A stretch of DNA of 64,000 bases from Lamellibrachia columna. Lineage: Eukaryota > Annelida > Polychaeta > Sabellida > Siboglinidae. The notes below the pieces were generated by a model. It was given only the letters and a program-made list of their open reading frames with translations, did no database searches and was not told the origin of the DNA. The stretch is from assembly GCA_963662155.1 (NCBI GenBank), contig OY759262.1, forward strand, positions 13,220,282 to 13,284,281, written 5' to 3'. Shown piece by piece: positions 6,946-59,310 of this stretch (within the stretch, counting starts at the first letter, position 1; each line of letters opens with the position of its first letter). A program made the translations under genes and the position numbers.

Positions 6946-7320
6946 AAGAGGGGTAAGACCACAGTTGACCTTCCTGTTTATTGTTTCACATATTCACAGG
7001 TTTGTTTGTAGAAGCTATTGGCTGTGAAATGGTGAATTTTTTGAGAGTTTAAAAGGCGGAGGGATTTATGGGAATTTTTCTGCTATGGGCCACGTGGGCG
7101 CATGAATACAAGGCTATTTTTGTCAAAATTGATGGGCATCGCACGTCGGGGCGTTTTAAAAGAGCTGGAGGTATGTGATTTTGATAAAACTTGGTCAGCA
7201 TTTCAATGAGATGATGGCAGATGCTGTGAAAAAGTTTCAGAATTTTTAGTGGTCACGTTTTCTTATAATCTAACAAAACGTTAACATGGCCACCAATGCA
7301 ATTTTCAAATGTGGTCTGAC
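6946..7320 (+). mobile_element. Inverted-end MITE, copy A (same family as the one in CIMIP1-like gene 4)
   Basis: The left end GGGGTAAGACCACAGTTGACC-like (first 20 bases from 6949) and the right end ...AAATGTGGTCTGACTCC (about 7303-7319) are inverted relatives of each other. Internal blocks such as TTATTGGCTGTGAAATGGTG-like sequence and GGCATCGCACGTCGGGGCG match the copies at 29636-30090 and 58645-59100. This copy lacks about 100 bp near its left end compared with the 29636 copy. It sits about 350 bp upstream of the BRMS1L start codon. I found no coding capacity. Confidence 0.85.
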
Positions 7321-7904
7321 TCCAAGAACACGGGACCATACAAATTTCTGAAATTTATTTCCTGCCGTTGTCATCATTTCGTTGACATGTTGGTCGAGTT
7401 TTGTCACATATTTCTAATGCTTTTAAAACGGCTGAACGTGCCATACTCGTCAATGTGTACCAATGTCTGCATAAATTACTACGTAATCGTGCCTTGTGGC
7501 GAAAAAATTGCCAAAAATCCTTCCGCCTATTGAAATCATCTAACAATCCACAGTTACACTGCTAACATGTTCTACCAGCAAACTTCCCAATGTGTCTGCT
7601 CAAATGCAGTTATGTCAGATGATATGATTTTTTTTAATTACACATATCTAAAATTACTGTGCCCTACATAACATTCAGGAAGTCTAACTAAGTCTAAGGC
7701 ATGATCCCATCAACGACAAACGTGACGCGCTTGGCCTTTCCTGGCCCGTCCTCAGGCTCAATGTTTTGAAAAGGGGGTTTCGGGCGTACATAATCAGCAA
7801 GGGATTTCGATCTGGAATGATTTTTTTTATAAATGTTACAGTAAAAATTATCTCAAAAGGGGTTCGTTCGAACTGAGGACCGGCGTACTTTCCTACTGGG
7901 CAAC

Positions 7905-23223: not shown

Positions 23224-23444
23224 ATGGCGTGGCTCCATACCAGAATCAAGCCGGACTCTAACCGGTACTACGGTATTCCCGACGATGCATGGTATTGTTC
23301 GTTCTGAGTCATTCTTTGTGAACGGCGCGTGGTGTTTTTTAAACAAAATGCTTATATCGTTGGCAGCATTGTGACGTCATGTCTTTCTGTTCTACATAAT
23401 CACTAGATGGCGCATTGGGATTAAGTCAAATGGCAATTGTTGTA

Positions 23445-23648: not shown

Positions 23649-26600
23649 TTGCTTTTGTTTTATTCTAAGATCTATTGTTCAATTAGCCCAATTTAATTAA
23701 TGGCGTATTCGGATCCATACTTACGTGCGTGCGTGCATTTATACACAAACATACATGCATCCACACACCCGCACATCCACACACCCACACAATCACACAC
23801 CTACAAGGCTACAACCTCCCCCACACACGCAAACAAACACATACATACACACATGCGCGCGCACGCACGCGCGCACGCACGCACGTACGCACGTACGTAC
23901 GTACGTACGTACGTACGTACGTACGTACGTACGTACAAACATAATTATACATAAGTCCTACATACATGCGCACATACATACACATGGATATGCTGTGTTG
24001 TAGCGCAATTGCGTCTAGCATTACTGCTTGTAAAACATAGCCTATTTCATCCCTTGCCTAAACTCAACTTTAATACGTTGTGATGTACCGTTTACTTCTC
24101 TAATACGTTGTAATGTACCGTTTACTTCTCTAATACGTTGCAAAGTACCGTTTACTTCTCTAATACGTTGTAATGTACCGTTTACTTCTCTAATACGTTG
24201 TAATGTATCGTTTACTTCTATAATACGTTGTAATGTACCGTTTACTTCTCTAATACGTTGTAATGTACCGTTTACTTCTCTAATACGTTGTAATGTACCG
24301 TTTACTTCTCTAATACGTTGTAATGTACCGTTTACTTCTCTAATACGTTGTAATGTATCGTTTACTTCTCTAATACGTTGTAATGTATCGTTTACTTCTC
24401 TAATACGTTGTAATGTATCGTTTACTTCTCTAATACGTTGTAATATACCGTTTACTTCTCTAATACGTGGTAATGTATCGTTTACTTCTCTAATACGTTG
24501 TAATGTACCGTTTACTTCTCTAATACGTTGTAATATATCGTTTACTTCTCTAATACGTTGTAATATACCGTTTACTTCTCTAATACGTTGTAATGTATCG
24601 TTTACTTCTCTAATACGTTGTAATGTATCGTTTACTTCTCTAATACGTTGTAATGTATCGTTTACTTCTCTAATACGTTGTAATGTACCGTTTACTTCTC
24701 TAATACGTTGTAATGTATCGTTTACTTCTCTAATACGTTGTAATGTATCGTTTACTTCTCTAATACGTTGTAATGTACCGTTTACTTCTCTAATACGTTG
24801 TAATGTATCGTTTACTTCTCTAATACGTTGTAATGTACCGTTTACTTCTCTAATACGTTGTAATGTACCGTTTACTTCTCTAATACGTTGTAATGTACCG
24901 TTTACTTCTCTAATACGTTGTAATGTACCGTTTACTTCTCTAAATCGCTGTAATGTACCGTTTACTTCTCGCCTTATCGTAATTATCGATTGTTTTGACA
25001 GCAGGTAATTAACACGCATTTACTTGGCTCAGTTATCTTTGTCGAAAGCTACACTGCCACTGTTTGCCTTTACACGTAGATCTGTAAGCAACAGCTGTAG
25101 AGAATGACTGAGGTGAGCGGTTGCTGGCGGAAATTCCCCCAAACATGTACACACGCAATTCGTATACACATGGGGGCCTACTGATGGAGAGCTAATAAGT
25201 GTTGCATTGCGTATACTGCAGGACGGAACATTTGCGCAAGGAGAACAGATATTACCGAGACGTTTGGAAGAAACAATACGGATATAACGAAGTGAGTATC
25301 TCCTCTTAACGTCGGCAGTAGTACGACACGATACAACCCATAACGTCCTCCTCTCTCAACAGTAGTACGACACGATACAACCCATAACGTCCTCCTCTCT
25401 CAACAGTAGTACGACACGATGCAACCCATCACGTCCTCCTCTCTCAACAGTAGTACGACATGATGCAACCCATAACGTCCTCCTCTCTCAACAGTAGTAC
25501 GACATGATGCAACCCATAACGTCCTCCTCTCTCAACAGTAGTACGACACGATGCAACCCATAACGTCCTCCTCTCTCAACAGTAGTACGACACGATGCAA
25601 CCCATAACGTCCTCCTCTCTCAACAGTAGTACGACACGATGCAACCCATAACGTCCTCCTCTCTCAACAGTAGTACGACATGATGCAACCCATAACGTCC
25701 TCCTCTCTCAACAGTAGTACGACATGATGCAACCCATAACGTCCTCCTCTCTCAACAGTAGTACGACATGATGCAACCCATAACGTCCTCCTCTCTCAAC
25801 AGTAGTACGACACGATGCAACCCATAACGTCCTCCTCTCTCAACAGTAGTACGACACGATGCAACCCATAACGTCCTCCTCTCTCAACAGTAGTACGACA
25901 CGATGCAACCCATAACGTCCTCCTCTCTCAACAGTAGTACGACACGATGCAACCCATAACGTCCTCCTCTCACAACAGTAGTACGACACGATGCAACCCA
26001 TAACGTCCTCCTCTCTCAACAGTAGTACGACACGATGCAACCCATAACGTCCTCCTCTCTCAACAGTAGTACGACACGATGCAACCCATAACGTCCTCCT
26101 CTCTCAACAGTAGTACGACACGATGCAACCCATAACGTCCTCCTCTCTCAACAGTAGTACGACACGATGCAACCCATAACGTCCTCCTCTCTCAACAGTA
26201 GTACGACACGATGCAACCCATAACGTCCTCCTCTCTCAACAGTAGTACGACACGATGCAACCCATAACGTCCTCCTCTCTCAACAGTAGTACGACACGAT
26301 GCAACCCATAACGTCCTCCTCTCTCAACAGTAGTACGACACGATGCAACCCATAACGTCCTCCTCTCTCAACAGTAGTACGACACGATTCAACCCATAAC
26401 GTCCTCCTCTCTCAACAGTAGTACGACACGATACAACCCATAACGTCCTCCTCTCTCAACAGTAGTACGACACGATACAACCCATAACGTCCTCCTCTCT
26501 CAACAGTAGTACGACACGATACAACCCATAACGTCCTCCTCTCTCAACAGTAGTACGACACGATTCAACCCATAACGTCCTCCTCTCTCAACAGTAGTAC

Positions 26601-29600
26601 GACACGATGCAACCCATAACGTCCTCCTCTCTCAACAGTAGTACGACACGATACAACTCATAACGTCCTCATCTCTCAACAGTAGTACGACACGATGCAA
26701 CCCATAACGTCCTCCTCTCTCAACAGTAGTACGACACGATGCAACCCATAACGTCCTCCTCTCTCAACAGTAGTACGACACGATGCAACCCATAACGTCC
26801 TCCTCTCTCAACAGTAGTACGACACGATACAACCCATAACGTCCTCCTCTCTCAACAGTAGTACGACACGATACAACCCATAACGTCCTCCTCTCTCAAC
26901 AGTAGTACGACACGATACAACCCATAACGTCCTCCTCTCTCAACAGTAGTACGACACGATGCAACCCATAACGTCCTCCTCTCTCAACAGTAGTACGACA
27001 CGATGCAACCCATAACGTCCTCCTCTCTCAACAGTAGTACGACACGATGCAACCCATAACGTCCTCCTCTCTCAACAGTAGTACGACACGATGCAACCCA
27101 TAACGTCCTCCTCTCTGAACAGTAGTACGACACGATGCAACCCATAACGTCCTCCTCTCTCAACAGTAGTACGACACGATGCAACCCATAACGTCCTCCT
27201 CTCTCAACAGTAGTACGACACGATACAACCCATAACGTCCTCCTCTCTCAACATTAGTACGACACGATACAACCCATAACGTCCTCCTCTCTCAACAGTA
27301 GTACGACACGATGCAACCCATAACGTCCTCCTCTCTCAACAGTAGTACGACACGATACAACCCATAACGTCCTCCTCTCTCAACAGTAGTACGACACGAT
27401 GCAACCCATAACGTCCTCCTCTCTCAACAGTAGTACGACACGATACAACCCATAACGTCCTCCTCTCTCAACAGTAGTACGACACGATACAACCCATAAC
27501 GTCCTCCTCTCTCAACAGTAGTACGACACGATGCAACCCATAACGTCCTCCTCTCTCAACAGTAGTACGACACGATACAACCCATAACGTCCTCCTCTCT
27601 CAACAGTAGTACGACACGATACAACCCATAACGTCCTCCTCTCTCAACAGTAGTACGACACGATACAACCCATAACGTCCTCCTCTCTCAACAGTAGTAC
27701 GACACGATACAACCCATAACGTCCTCCTCTCTCAACAGTAGTACGACACGATACAACCCATAACGTCCTCCTCTCTCAACAGTAGTACGACACGATACAA
27801 CCCATAACGTCCTCCTCTCTCAACAGTAGTACGACACGATACAACCCATAACGTCCTCCTCTCTCAACAGTAGTACGACACGATACAACCCATAACGTCC
27901 TCCTCTCTCAACAGTAGTACGACACGATACAACCCATAACGTCCTCCTCTCTCAACAGTAGTACGACACGATACAACCCATAACGTCCTCCTCTCTCAAC
28001 AGTAGTACGACACGATACAACCCATAACGTCCTCCTCTCTCAACAGTAGTACGACACGATACAACCCATAACGTCCTCCTCTCTCAACAGTAGTACGACA
28101 CGATACAACCCATAACGTCCTCCTCTCTCAACAGTAGTACGACACGATACAACCCATAACGTCCTCCTCTCTCAACAGTAGTACGACACGATACAAACCA
28201 TAACGTCCTCCTCTCTCAACAGTAGTACGACACGATACAACCCATAACGTCCTCCTCTCTCAACAGTAGTACGACACGATACAACCCATAACGTCCTCCT
28301 CTCTCAACAGTAGTACGACACGATACAACCCATAACGTCCTCCTCTCTCAACAGTAGTACGACACGATACAACCCATAACGTCCTCCTCTCTCAACAGTA
28401 GTACGACACGATACAACCCATAACGTCCTCCTCTCTCAACAGTAGTACGACACGATACAACCCATAACGTCCTCCTCTCTCAACAGTAGTACGACACGAT
28501 ACAACCCATAACGTCCTCCTCTCTCAACAGTAGTACGACACGATACAACCCATAACGTCCTCCTCTCTCAACAGTAGTACGACACGATACAACCCATAAC
28601 GTCCTCCTCTCTCAACAGTAGTACGACACGATACAACCCATAACGTCCTCCTCTCTCAACAGTAGTACGACACGATACAACCCATAACGTCCTCCTCTCT
28701 CAACAGTAGTACGACACGATACAACCCATAACGTCCTCCTCTCTCAACAGTAGTACGACACGATACAACCCATAACGTCCTCCTCTCTCAACAGTAGTAC
28801 GACACGATACAACCCATAACGTCCTCCTCTCTCAACAGTAGTACGACACGATACAACCCATAACGTCCTCCTCTCTCAACAGTAGTACGACACGATACAA
28901 CCCATAACGTCCTCCTCTCTCAACAGTAGTACGACACGATACAACCCATAACGTCCTCCTCTCTCAACAGTAGTACGACACGATACAACCCATAACGTCC
29001 TCCTCTCTCAACAGTAGTACGACACGATACAACCCATAACGTCCTCCTCTCTCAACAGTAGTACGACACGATACAACCCATAACGTCCTCCTCTCTCAAC
29101 AGTAGTACGACACGATACAACCCATAACGTCCTCCTCTCTCAACAGTAGTACGACACGATACAACCCATAACGTCCTCCTCTCTCAACAGTAGTACGAAA
29201 CGATACAACCCATAACGTCCTCTTCTCTCAACAGCTTCAAACATGGCGGGGTCACATTGTTCATTCATGTTCAATGATATATAAGTTTCTTTACTTCAAA
29301 ACAGGCCTAGGAAACGATGATTCGGAATTACATTAACCGTTAATGGTTAAGCATTTTGCCTATAACCGATAATTCAATATGAATCTTCAACGTCGAATAT
29401 GAATCCTTAACGTTTTAAATGAAAACCTGATTGGTGGTAGTTGTTCACAGTTATTGGACTGTTTGTGGTACGACAAATAATAAGGCTTCGACGCTGTTTT
29501 CAGCTAAATAAAGAAATTGCCCCGCGGCGTCCACTGCCTCGATTTCCGCCCGTGGTCCCACCGCCGAGACATTGTCCTACTGGCACCGACCGCTTCCTCC

Positions 29601-30232
29601 GAATCCAGTACGACTGTCTGCCTAATGTCGCCCCAGGGTAAGACCACAGTTGACCTTCCTGTTTATTGTTTGACACGAATGTAGGGCATATTAAATTGCG
29701 ATATGTGAATTTAAACAATTCATATGATGTGATATAAGTGCAATTGAGCAGGCATATTCAGAGGTTTGTTTGTAGAAGTTATTGGCTGTGAAATGGTGCA
29801 TTTTTTGAGAGTTTAACAGGCGGAGGGATTTATGGGAATTGTTCTGCTCTGTACCACATGGGCGCATGAATACATGGCTATTTATGTAAAAATTTATAGG
29901 CATCGCACGTCGGGGCGTTTTAAAAGAGCTGGAGGTATGTGATTTTGATAAAATTTGGTCAGTATATCAATGAGATGATGGCAGTTGCTGTAGACAATTT
30001 TCTTAATTTTTGATGGTCACGTTTTCTTATAATCAGGCAAAACGTTAACATGGCCAACAATGCAATTCTCTACTGTGGTCTGTCCCCTAGTGTCGCCCCA
30101 CAACACTATCGCTACCCGCTCTCGACGTCAAGGAACTACGGCTGGATGGTGATGTATAAAGATCTCAATCCACCTTCGCCGTACGGGCGACGGGACATAT
30201 TCAAGGTGTTTGGGTGGCCAGTTCCGACGTGA
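23224..30232 (+). CDS. CIMIP1/LLC1-like ciliary microtubule inner protein, paralogue 4, interrupted by a transposon that may act as an intron
   Basis: Exons are 23224-23291, 25222-25291, 29504-29637 and 30091-30232 (68 + 70 + 134 + 142 nt, 137 residues). The first two junctions have phases 2 and 0 like the paralogues: ...[22 protein letters not shown]. Exon 2 is 15 nt shorter than in genes 1-3, and the usual WP is WK. The C-terminal LLC1 block is [12 protein letters not shown] followed by KVFGWPVPT and a stop. In the other copies this whole C-terminal part is one exon. Here a MITE-like element splits it, and the element's outer ends give AGG|GTAAGA and CCCCTAG|T. Splicing there joins NVAPG to VAPQHY in frame. 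Unspliced, the frame stops at 29639-29641 (TAA in the element's end). Intron 1 holds (TA)n, (ACGT)n and a 30-bp array; intron 2 holds a 44-bp array. The first donor (TGGTATTG) is weak. Confidence 0.8.
23440..23645. repeat. Two (TA)n tracts with a duplicated spacer, in gene 4 intron 1
   Basis: (TA)n at about 23444-23537 and 23575-23640 are each followed by near-identical ACACATATTTG(T/C)TTTTGTTT and TTCTAAGAT sequence, so the spacer and tract were duplicated together. Confidence 0.95.
23725..23945. repeat. CACA-rich tract and (ACGT)n palindromic microsatellite, gene 4 intron 1
   Basis: A CACA/CATACA-rich stretch leads into GCGCACGCAC and then about 13 copies of the self-complementary tetramer ACGT (23882-23936). 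Every ACGT unit is a palindrome, so the tract can extrude as a hairpin. Confidence 0.95.
24062..24970. repeat. 30-bp minisatellite, 30 copies, gene 4 intron 1
   Basis: The unit is TAATACGTTGTAATGTACCG plus TTTACTTCTC. From the first TAATACGTTG (24071) to the last variant unit (24941) is exactly 29 periods of 30 bp, so there is no net indel. Units differ mainly by C/T at one site (GTACCG or GTATCG). A 325-codon minus-strand frame over it is an artefact of the period being a multiple of three. Confidence 0.97.
25300..29236. repeat. 44-bp minisatellite, about 89 copies, gene 4 intron 2
   Basis: The unit is AGTAGTACGACACGATACAA, CCCATAACGTCC, TCCTCTCTCAAC. From the first CCCAT (25337) to the last (29209) is 3872 bp, exactly 88 periods, so no net indel has accumulated. 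Variants are graded: units with GATGCAA and ACATGAT occur in the left half, and the right third is almost uniformly GATACAA. Each unit carries TCCTCCTCTCTCAACAG, which resembles a splice acceptor on the gene's sense strand. The array fills nearly the whole intron. Confidence 0.98.
29636..30090 (+). mobile_element. Inverted-end MITE, copy B, inserted in CIMIP1-like gene 4 coding sequence
   Basis: Flanks carry the 10-bp direct repeat TGTCGCCCCA (29626-29635 and 30091-30100). The left end GGGTAAGACCACAGTTGACC is the inverse of the right end (CTACTGTGGTCTGTCCCCTA). Internal sequence matches copies at 6946-7320, 58645-59100 and a fragment at 48150-48253. CAGGG-type tips and an apparent 8-10 bp target duplication suggest a non-autonomous hAT-like element, but the tip assignment is ambiguous by one or two bases. 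No transposase is encoded. Confidence 0.9.
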
Positions 30233-40568: not shown

Positions 40569-40592
40569 AAGTGCAGGGGGGGTTACCTAGAG

Positions 40593-43443
40593 GTGTCTCA
40601 AGCAGAACAAGAGGCCACTAGCACAGATAAACCAATATCAAATCATCCGAAAAACATCTCTGAAAAAGGTTATAGATGTGTATGTTTAAATGCAAGGAGC
40701 ATAGTAAATAAGAAAAACGAATTAAACATTATGGTAGAAGATATTGACCCTCACATAATTGGTATAACTGAATCATGGGCCAACATAGATATAACAGATG
40801 CTGAATTAGGACTGACAGGATATGTAATGTTTAGGAAAGATCGAATAGGAAGAAGGGGCGGGGGAGTTATTTTATATGTTAAAGAATCTATTCAGGCTTA
40901 TGAAATAAAACTAGAAAGGGAAGCAGATTGTGATGAAGCTGTTTGGTGCAAAATTGTTTCAGGAAATTCAAAATTAACTATTGGATTAGTTTACCGAAGT
41001 CCAAACATAAACGAAGAGGACAACACAAAAATAAAAAACGCTATAAAGGAAGTTAGTAAAGGGGAATGTATCATAATGGGAGATTTTAACCATGGACACA
41101 TACAATGTAATTCTCTAGAGAGCACAGGGATTGAGGACCAACAATTTCTATTTTTAATCCAGGATAGCTTTCTTACTCAGCACGTACTAGAACCAACCAG
41201 GGGAGAAAATGTATTAGATATAGTTTTGTCATCACAGAAAGAATTAGTGGACAATGTAAAAATATTTGAACCATTGGGTAATAGTGACCATATTCAAATA
41301 CATTTTGACATCAATGTAAAATCAGAAAGTAAAAAAATTAAAACGTACAAGAGAAACTTCCACAAAGGTAACTACAAAGATATGAGAAAATACTTAGCAA
41401 AGCTAGATTGGAATAACATGCTGATGAATAAGACCGCAATTGAATGTTGGAATATTCTAAAATATGAAATTGAGAGTATCATCGATAAATTTGTTCCCTT
41501 CCAAAAACAAGGAAAACGGTGTAGAAAGAAACACTTGTCAAAAGAGGCTATTAGAAAAATAATGGTAAAACAAACTATGTGGAGGGTTTATAGGCATACC
41601 AGAAAGGAAGAAGACTATGCAAAATACAAAGAGGCACTTAATGCAGCTACAACTGAAATCAGACAATCTAAAAGAAGCTATGAGCAAAAACTAGCATGTA
41701 ACATAAAAAATGACAGCAAGAGTTTTTATGCATATGTCAGGAGTAAACAAAACGTACAATACAAGGTTGGACCTCTAGAAGACAGTGCTGGAAATATAAT
41801 ATCACAGGGGTTTTTAATGGCGGAAGACCTAAATGGTTACTTCAGTTCAGTGTTTACCAAAGAAGATATTAGTTCATTACCAGTTGCTGATGCTAAATTT
41901 CAGGGGGCTAAATCTGACTATTTAGGTCTGTTAGTTGTAACTCCAGAATTGGTAGCTAAGAAAATAAAGGCAATGAAGGATAACAAATCACCGGGAGTGG
42001 ATGGGATTCCTCCAAAATTACTAATGGAAAAAGTAGAACAAATCAGTATACCACTTGCAAGAGTATTCAACTTGTCATTAAAAGAGGGAGTTGTTCCGTT
42101 TGAATGGAAAGAAGCAAACATCATACCATTATTTAAAAAGGGTTCGAGAAATAAGTCAGAGAATTACAGACCAGTGAGTTTAACGTCAGTGATTTGTAAA
42201 TTATTAGAAAGGTTAATTAAAGACCATATGGTGGAATTCCTCGTTAAGCATAAATTATTAAATTCATCTCAACATGGATTCCTTAAAGCGAGGTCATGCT
42301 TAACAAATATGTTATGTTTTTTGGAAGAAATCACTAAGTGGATAGACGTGGGATCGCCAGTAGATATTATCTACTTAGATTTTCAGAAAGCTTTTGACAA
42401 AGTGCCACATCAAAGATTACTACTTAAATTAAAAGCCCATGGTATCGGGGATAGCATAACTGACTGGATAGAACAATGGCTGACTGACAGAAGACAACGA
42501 GTTGTAGTAGATGGAGAAGTTTCAAATTGGAAATCGGTTTTGAGTGGGGTACCTCAAGGATCAGTATTAGGACCTATATTATTCTTAATTTATATCAATG
42601 ACTTGGACGACAGTATAACAAGTAACGTACTGAAATTTGTGGATGACACAAAACTGTTTAGAAAGGTTAATACTGATGGTGATAAACAACATTTACAAAA
42701 CGATCTAGACAGATTAGTGAAATGGTCTGAGAAATGGCAGATGCTGTTCAATTTTGGGAAATGTAAATGCCTACATACAGGACATGGGAACTTGAATGTA
42801 AACTATAAAATGGGAGATACTGTTCTGGGTACTACTGTAAAAGAAAAGGACTTAGGAGTTACAATAAGCGCTGATATGAAAGTTTCAGAGCAGTGTGGTA
42901 TTGCAGCTTCAAAGGGTAATCAAATTCTTGGATTGATTAGAAGAAACATAACATACAAGGGAAAAAAGTTAATTATACCTCTTTATAAAGCAATAGTTAG
43001 ACCTCATTTAGAATACTGTATACAAGCATGGAGACCATATCGTAAGAAGGATATAGATACGCTTGAACGCATACAAAGGAGAGCAACTAAAATGATTCCA
43101 GAACTTAGAGACCTTAGTTATGAAGAACGCCTGAAAGAATGTGGTTTAACAACTCTAGAGACAAGGAGGTTAAGAGGAGATCAGATTGAAGTTTTTAAGA
43201 TATTGAATGGGTATGAAAATATTGATAGAAATATGTTTTTCTCACTCAAGAAGGATAGCAGAACTAGAGGACGAGGTAAAATTAGTAAAGGATCAATGTA
43301 GATTGGACATCAGGAAGCACTCGTTCTCACAGAGGACAATAAATGAATGGAACAAATTGTCTACAGATTGTGTAACTGTTAGCAGCGTGAATATGTTTAA
43401 AAACAAGGTTGACACATATCTCAGGAGGGCGGGTTATAAGTAG
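40593..43443 (+). pseudogene. LINE ORF2 endonuclease-reverse transcriptase with one C-terminal frameshift
   Basis: A 902-codon frame runs from 40593 to 43301. The endonuclease occupies about residues 25-245 (LNARSIVNKK, IIGITESW, IIMGDFNHGHIQ near residue 162, NSDHIQIHFD near 230). The RT covers about 480-760, with NYRPVSLTSVICKLLERLI, IIYLDFQKAFDKVPHQRLLL, LSGVPQGSVLGPILFLIYIN and the catalytic LKFVDDTKLF near residue 681 (FVDD in place of the commoner YADD/FADD). Near 43275 one base appears lost; the other frame continues EVKLVKDQCRLDIRKHSFSQ to a stop at 43443. The length is normal for CR1/L2 ORF2. Confidence 0.93.
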
Positions 43444-48045: not shown

Positions 48046-48149
48046 ACGAGGTAGGTAGTTAGACGTTGCATTAATTGTTTCATGTAGGTCATAGCGTCAA
48101 CATTTACTAAAACAGCCATGTAATCATGTGCCCATAACAGTAAAATTCC

Positions 48150-48253
48150 TAATGCACTACTGTTTAATTCCACATATCACAATTTAATACGCCCTATACA
48201 TTCGTGTCAAACAATAAACAGGAAGGTCAGCTGTGGTATTGTCCCACTACAGT
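48150..48253 (-). mobile_element. Fragment of the inverted-end MITE family (copy C)
   Basis: Reading the minus strand, GGGACAATACCACAGCTGAC, CTTCCTGTTTATTGTTTGAC and ACGAATGTA match the left end of the copy at 29636-30090. Only about 100 bp of one end survive. Confidence 0.75.
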
Positions 48254-58559: not shown

Positions 58560-59310
58560 ATCGAATTGATTAAGCAGTTTTAAGGTAGACACCTGTCCTG
58601 AAATCAATCGGTGGGATGCAACCGTTTGTTGCACACATCTTCGCCTGGAGGGGACAGACCTCAGATCAAAACTGCATTGGTGGCCATGTTAACGTTTTGT
58701 CTGATTATAAGAAAACGTGACTACTAAAAATTAAGAAATTTTTTCACAGCAACTGCCATCATGTAACTGACATGCTGACAAAATTTTGTCAAAATCACAT
58801 ACCTCCAGCTCTTAAAACGCCCCTATGTGCAATGCCCGTCAGTTAAAAAAAAGCCATGTATTCATGCGCCCACGTGGCCCATAGAAGAAAAATTCTCATA
58901 AATCCCTCCGGCTGTTAAACTCTCCAAAAATGCACGATTTCACAGCCAATAGCTTCTACAAAGTAACCTGTGAATATGTCTGCTGAATTGCACTTATATC
59001 ACACCGTATGAATTGTTTAAATTCACATATCACAATTTAATACGCCCTACATTCGTGTCAAACAATAAACAAGAAGGTCAACTGTGGTCTTTCCCCTGGA
59101 CACAGTGAGGTTTCCATTGTGATGGAAATTTTGTATGCGCCCATATTCTGGGCGCATACATAAGTAGCCTCGATTACCCAGGCTCCCCGCTGTGGACATA
59201 ATCCTACAGATCGGGGAATGCTGCCCGTTCGTCGCACACATCTTCGCCTAGACGCAGTGTACTTTTCATTGTGACATAAATTATGTATGCACCCAGATTA
59301 TGGGGCATAC
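58560..59310. repeat. Duplicated ~120-bp unit, one copy carrying MITE copy D
   Basis: The unit begins GCACACATCTTCGCCT and continues CAGTG...CATTGTGA...ATTATGTATGC, ending near a palindrome of GCGCATACATAA type. One copy (about 59235-59310) is uninterrupted. The other is split at CGCCTGGA by the MITE (58645-59100), so the filled and empty sites lie side by side. Confidence 0.7.
58645..59100 (-). mobile_element. Inverted-end MITE, copy D
   Basis: It begins GGGGACAGACCTCAGATCAA and ends ...CAACTGTGGTCTTTCCCC, the reverse orientation of the copy at 29636-30090. Shared internal blocks include GGCCATGTTAACGTTTTG, CACAGCCAATAGCTTCTACA and CAATAAACAAGAAGGTCAAC. CCTGGA occurs at both borders. No coding capacity. 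Confidence 0.85.

Follow-up and report, generated by a model that had tools for sequence, protein, structure and literature searches.

A MITE interrupting the final coding exon of a CIMIP1-like gene of Lamellibrachia columna, likely spliced out as a spliceosomal intron

The terminal coding exon of a CIMIP1-like gene of L. columna (gene 4) contains a MITE that is likely to be spliced out as a spliceosomal intron. The window analysed, meaning the whole stretch of 64,000 nucleotides to which the positions below refer, belongs to chromosome 2. For this case the MITE and its family can be compared with the duplicated target, with a homologue whose site is apparently empty and with a related species that has the same predicted product. 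A further and more tentative proposal concerns the birth of this intron, which might have taken two steps, a frame-breaking MITE insertion being brought back into frame by a scar of templated repair, for which the duplicated target would have served as primer.

Gene 4 is CIMIP1/LLC1-like, and its joined exons give 137 codons plus a stop, open throughout (Table 1). The final codon of exon 1 is split, with a GT directly after position 23291, and exon 2 is flanked by a CTGCAG acceptor and a GTGAGT donor. Exon 3 was found at a single locus in genome searches that covered the 879.7 Mb assembly in 30 contigs. Against Pfam, the spliced product was aligned to LLC1 (CIMIP1) over residues 20-135 (E 7.6e-5), with a score of 23.8 bits, below the curated cutoff of 27.3, whereas exon 3 alone gave its top score with SPMIP1, likewise below cutoff. 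A profile with the paralogues added led to C20orf85 in the PDB (E 0.004). The gene is therefore named CIMIP1-like only. Most of intron 2 is taken up by tandem repeats that extend over almost 4 kb (25316-29234); where tested, the repeat unit is 44 bp long. Elsewhere in the window, a 910-codon open frame (40569-43301) was judged by eye to be LINE-like, with endonuclease and reverse transcriptase.

Table 1. Positions of gene 4, its predicted intron and the MITE copies of the window
Feature	Position	Strand	Remarks
Analysed window	chromosome 2, 13220282-13284281		L. columna wsLamColu1.1
Gene 4 coding exon 1	23224..23291	+	91% over 23 aa in tblastn with the N terminus from L. satsuma
Gene 4 coding exon 2	25222..25291	+	tblastn 83% over 23 aa
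Gene 4 coding exon 3, first part (before the MITE)	29504..29637	+	TTTTCAG acceptor; P0001 match
Gene 4 coding exon 3, second part (after the MITE)	30091..30232	+	TGA at end
MITE copy in gene 4	29636..30087	+	CCCC-right-end subfamily; full copy of 454-bp family
Predicted intron	29638..30090	+	donor AGG|GTAAGA, acceptor CTGTCCCCTAG|T
Left target-site copy TAGT, here TAAT	29623..29626	+	family TSD usually 4 bp
Copy of GTCGCCCCA, 9 nt	29627..29635	+	putative filler from repair, or else belonging to a long TSD
Right target-site copy TAGT	30088..30091	+	supplies predicted acceptor AG
GTCGCCCCA, exon sequence behind right target copy	30092..30100	+	
Competing in-frame acceptor AG inside element (TTTTCTTATAATCAG)	30035..30036	+	product 155 aa
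Second MITE copy of the window	6950..7323	+	internally deleted, TSD AAGA
Third MITE copy of the window	58650..59096	-	TSD TCCA
MITE fragment of the window	48103..48240	-	

The predicted donor AGG|GTAAGA is formed by the left end of the element and agrees with seven of nine consensus positions, by a crude count against the general splice-site consensus. In the predicted acceptor CTGTCCCCTAG|T, the C tract is derived from the element and the TAG from the target. The first-pass annotation of this DNA had described AGG|GTAAGA on the left and a pyrimidine-rich CCCCTAG|T on the right, and both were found; its claim that the element carries both splice sites held for the donor, but not for the acceptor AG, which lies in the duplicated target TAGT. 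It was also right in that the unspliced frame stops, with a TAA immediately after GGG, and in that joining 29637|30091 restores an open frame, ...LPNVAPGVAPQHY..., in which splicing at the predicted borders leaves four extra residues, VAPG. We infer that gene 4 transcripts are spliced at 29637|30091. Nine donor/acceptor pairs would leave gene 4 open, and the top crude score is a tie between the border pair and the same donor with an inner acceptor (first exon base 30037). Similarity to the other copies extends near both predicted splice boundaries (element 29636-30087 vs. predicted intron 29638-30090). Folding of the predicted intron gave no signal of RNA structure (z = -1.19), with 12 of 100 shuffles folding equally well.

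The family consensus is 454 bp long, with terminal inverted repeats and ends GGGGTAAGACCACAG / CTGTGGTCTGNCYCC. It starts with GGGGTAAGACCACAG, its left end reading GGGGTAAGA, and finishes with a right end CTGTGGTCTGACTCC or, in a second subfamily to which the gene 4 copy belongs, CTGTGGTCTGNCCCC. Exact right ends CTGTGGTCTGNCCCCT were counted 573 times in the genome, compared to once for a reversed control pattern. From 4483 first-look candidates, 40 near-full-length copies were scored, that of gene 4 included; the closest other scored copy is 95% identical, and one diverged match is at 68%. The gene 4 copy differs from its subfamily consensus by 20 substitutions over 453 positions and one indel; ten other members of this subfamily carry between 7 and 25 substitutions.

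Target-site duplications were read from the same number of fetched copies (40, including gene 4's), one of which was excluded for having no left end. A perfect TSD was present in 21 of the 38 other two-ended copies, always of 4 bp but for one longer (TATATA), with T as first base in 18 and A as last base in 17; the duplications of 8-10 bp that had been expected for the family were thus not borne out. TAGT itself is the perfect 4-bp TSD of two other copies (L091 and L115). The element is a MITE, being short, with terminal inverted repeats, a fixed-length TSD and many copies, although the copy of gene 4 deviates from the TSD length of the family (12-13 bp vs. 4 bp). Among the 17 copies without a perfect TSD, 11 are composites with a recurring neighbour, and such neighbours of other copies (CCCTATTT on the left, AAATAGACGGAAGT on the right) point to longer composite elements. 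Within the window, the three further members that had been reported were all recovered (6950-7323, 58650-59096 and the fragment 48103-48240). In 6950-7669, the MITE copy is directly followed by an inverted relative with 67% similarity.

At gene 4, the element is surrounded by a direct repeat, CCTAATGTCGCCCCA / CCTAGTGTCGCCCCA, with 14 of 15 positions matching. Its left flank TAATGTCGCCCCA and right flank TAGTGTCGCCCCA show a duplication of 13 bp with 12 matching, so that the inverted-end element within a direct repeat of the first-pass annotation was confirmed, but with a repeat of 12-13 bp instead of 10. Only one other equally similar pair of 12-mers, a poly-T, was detected at the same spacing among 45,431 positions of the window, from which tandem arrays and simple repeats had been excluded beforehand. 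In 78 distinct complete copies, a sample that is not random since it joins the best-scoring copies with those having an AG near the right border, the duplications measured less than 4 bp in 39, 4 bp in 23, 5 bp in 13, 7 bp in one and 8 bp (7 matching) in L067, gene 4 with its 13 bp (12 matching) being the sole case above 8 bp. The flank duplication of L067 (G000:C1:14340046-14340063, plus strand) extends as AAGATTTA/AAGATTTG, 7/8, and is arranged like that of gene 4.

The length of the duplication matters for the reading frame. With a plain 4-bp TSD of TAGT, splicing at GGG|GTAAG and TAG|T would add GGGT to the mRNA, that is, 4 nt, and the frame would be broken. In gene 4, GTCGCCCCA is present a second time after the left TAAT, and GGGG is shorter by one G, resulting in a gain of 12 nt. 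At the left target copy, the L. satsuma gene model has a Ser, which fits AGT, as compared with AAT in the window. An acceptor supplied by the TSD gives a multiple of three (+3) only if the TSD ends in AG, and this was the case in none of the 21 perfect TSDs, AG being present at positions 2-3 in three of them. Likewise, for 15 right ends followed by NNAG, a left end was found in six and a matching TSD in none. This arithmetic suggests why a MITE would rarely yield introns in spite of a good donor, if its acceptor has to come from a 4-bp TSD.

The product expected from splicing at the element borders has a counterpart in L. satsuma. The gene model LSAT2_003678 (P0001, 'hypothetical protein') is 137 aa long and identical to the gene 4 product at 129 of 137 residues; at the junction it reads ...LPSVAPGVAPQHY... 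(SVAPGVAPQHY), and thus has the same four extra residues. This sequence fits the border acceptor and not the inner one. Of the eight differences between the species, two lie within the split exon (91 residues) and six in the other 46 residues. As the L. satsuma model agrees with this spliced product, the MITE probably gave rise to the intron, and the intron became fixed, before the split of L. columna and L. satsuma, and from its protein model L. satsuma would be expected to carry the same MITE. An intron restricted to L. columna was also considered, but is doubted given the equivalent product of the L. satsuma model. Hence, the proposal of a young intron made by a DNA transposon is well supported, by the sequence and by the L. 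satsuma model, in what concerns its origin, but the intron is probably not very young.

A second homologue, P0002, is 66% identical, with 94 aa encoded on a 549-nt contig, and reads MPGYVPQAYRY at this place, the four residues being absent. Its start, MHPRRCFQ, resembles RRCFQ, the translated 3' end of intron 2 in the window, so that P0002 looks like the translation of unspliced DNA in which the site is empty; possibly it comes instead from a transcript that kept intron 2. Further homologues were sought with a profile, which returned the same two proteins only, out of 29 candidates. The three neighbouring paralogues, said by the first-pass annotation to have no intron at this place, are indeed uninterrupted in their DNA across the aligned stretch, but with an identity of just 24-31% and an alignment that is gapped at the insert site. 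In neutral simulations (n=4000) the frame stayed open in 8.6% at 4.4% divergence and in 54% at 1%, making the survival of the gene 4 frame weak evidence.

Exonic copies elsewhere in the genome were sought among right ends followed by NAG or NNAG, of which 65 of 66 were fetched and 43 were complete, with both ends. From these 43, 17 with CTATTT as left neighbour were dropped, and for the 26 kept, with gene 4 and some near-duplicates among them, the flanks were put together as an empty site and translated in all six frames; most of them showed some open frame across the junction. Seven loci chosen by eye, plus the gene 4 product, were scanned against Pfam, L078 in spliced form and the other six as empty sites, and one clear domain resulted among the seven, a Sushi in L087 (G000:C7:2076509-2076526, minus strand). 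Here the MITE lies in sense within the Sushi exon, with TSD TAGA, and the joined frame gives E 6.6e-9. Eight acceptors were tried near the right end, and the lone in-frame one is 74 nt inside the element, with a stop soon after. L087 is probably a broken gene or allele, the outcome expected from an ordinary insertion. The genome search that had been recommended for exonic copies thus yielded this one, but no second in-frame MITE intron among the 65 right ends (43 complete, open frames in 26, Pfam for seven loci). Because coding sequence was sought by open frames in 26 copies and by Pfam for seven loci, other MITE introns may have been missed.

Several other readings of the gene 4 copy were weighed. 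The MITE could have broken the gene, leaving a pseudogene or a truncated protein, with the splice signals at its borders a matter of luck. Such an outcome is in line with the immediate stop of the unspliced frame, and L087, whose Sushi exon is left without a usable restoring acceptor, indicates that the family can break genes. However, gene 4 is open in all four coding exons and has its other splice sites, the split exon departs from L. satsuma at 2 of its 91 residues, and the spliced product is matched by the L. satsuma model; a broken gene is considered unlikely. It is also improbable that the donor of the element works with the internal acceptor at 30035-30036, by which the right 54 nt of the predicted intron would be exonic and 18 residues would be added. 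This acceptor, TTTTCTTATAATCAG, is present in the family consensus, is in frame (155 vs. 137 aa) and equals the border acceptor in crude score, but it is not used in the L. satsuma model, whose sequence is the one expected from the border acceptor. Finally, insertions of transposable elements into pre-existing introns are common, and the MITE might have inserted into, or replaced, an older intron at this site. Yet the element extends as far as the predicted splice site on either side, the target TAG being followed by no remnant of another intron; P0002 is continuous here without the four residues, and the paralogues are uninterrupted over the aligned stretch. An older intron is considered very improbable.

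For the favoured reading, that of a MITE spliced out at its borders, the +12 nt could have arisen as follows. The MITE would insert at TAGT with the usual 4-bp duplication, giving a spliced product with 4 nt more and out of frame; then, or during the insertion itself, repair of the left junction would copy nine nt from behind the right TAGT, by synthesis primed at the duplicated TAGT, and would also lose one terminal G, which would bring the gain to 12 nt, in frame. The filler step has one clear copy, that of gene 4, and one weak parallel in L067 (7/8) on its side, and the two-step birth is proposed as a possibility with somewhat less than an even chance. The same sequence would result from a single staggered target duplication of 12-13 bp in place of 4 bp plus filler, with the intron reading unaltered. 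The two duplicate copies adjoin the element on both sides and L067 has an 8-bp version, as such a long duplication would have it, but the family TSD is usually 4 bp, gene 4 stands alone above 8 bp among the 78 copies, and a 4-bp TAGT occupies the normal place at the right end, being a perfect TSD in two other copies; a long duplication is likewise given somewhat less than an even chance. If the two-step birth is true, an element whose geometry adds 4 nt at TAGT could have turned into an intron that an animal gene tolerates.

With gene 4, the introns known to be of transposon origin gain a probable new case from an annelid. Titles and abstract openings of the retrieved papers on introners in annelids and on intron gain in Lamellibrachia report no such intron, and no counterpart of the frame-setting duplication was met in those parts of the literature that were compared. 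Ds, a hAT element of maize, differs from the MITE of gene 4 in belonging to a plant; by the title of Giroux et al. 1994, this DNA transposon reportedly made an intron, as is proposed for gene 4. One predicted MITE intron has been found in the L. columna genome (43 complete AG-border copies, 26 of them frame-screened), compared to at least four similar introns per genome in the definition of introners given by Gozashti et al. 2022 (PMC9860276). Since the usual TSD is of 4 bp and an ordinary insertion breaks the frame, gene 4 represents so far a single probable intron gain and not a demonstrated introner family. The closest likenesses are with the introners described in that work. Those of Chrysochromulina have a 4-bp TSD, carry the 5' splice site and co-opt the 3' splice site, as in gene 4 with its 4-bp family TSD, element donor and co-opted acceptor; in contrast, they form an intron family for which there is no evidence of TIRs (PMC9860276, Fig. 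2C), whereas gene 4 shows clear TIRs, one intron and a duplication longer than the usual TSD. In Aureococcus, insertion and splicing add 12 nt, or four amino acids, with respect to an element-free orthologue, the same gain as in gene 4, but there the element brings along its 5' and its 3' splice site, with 4 of the 12 nt contributed by the element and 8 by the TSD (PMC9860276, Fig. 2F-G), unlike gene 4, in which the target provides the acceptor AG and the TSD typical of the family measures 4 bp. The introners of Symbiodinium microadriaticum share TIRs and 4-bp TSDs with the MITE of gene 4, but with the origin of the splice sites reversed, the 3' site being carried and the 5' site co-opted (PMC9860276, Fig. 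2B).
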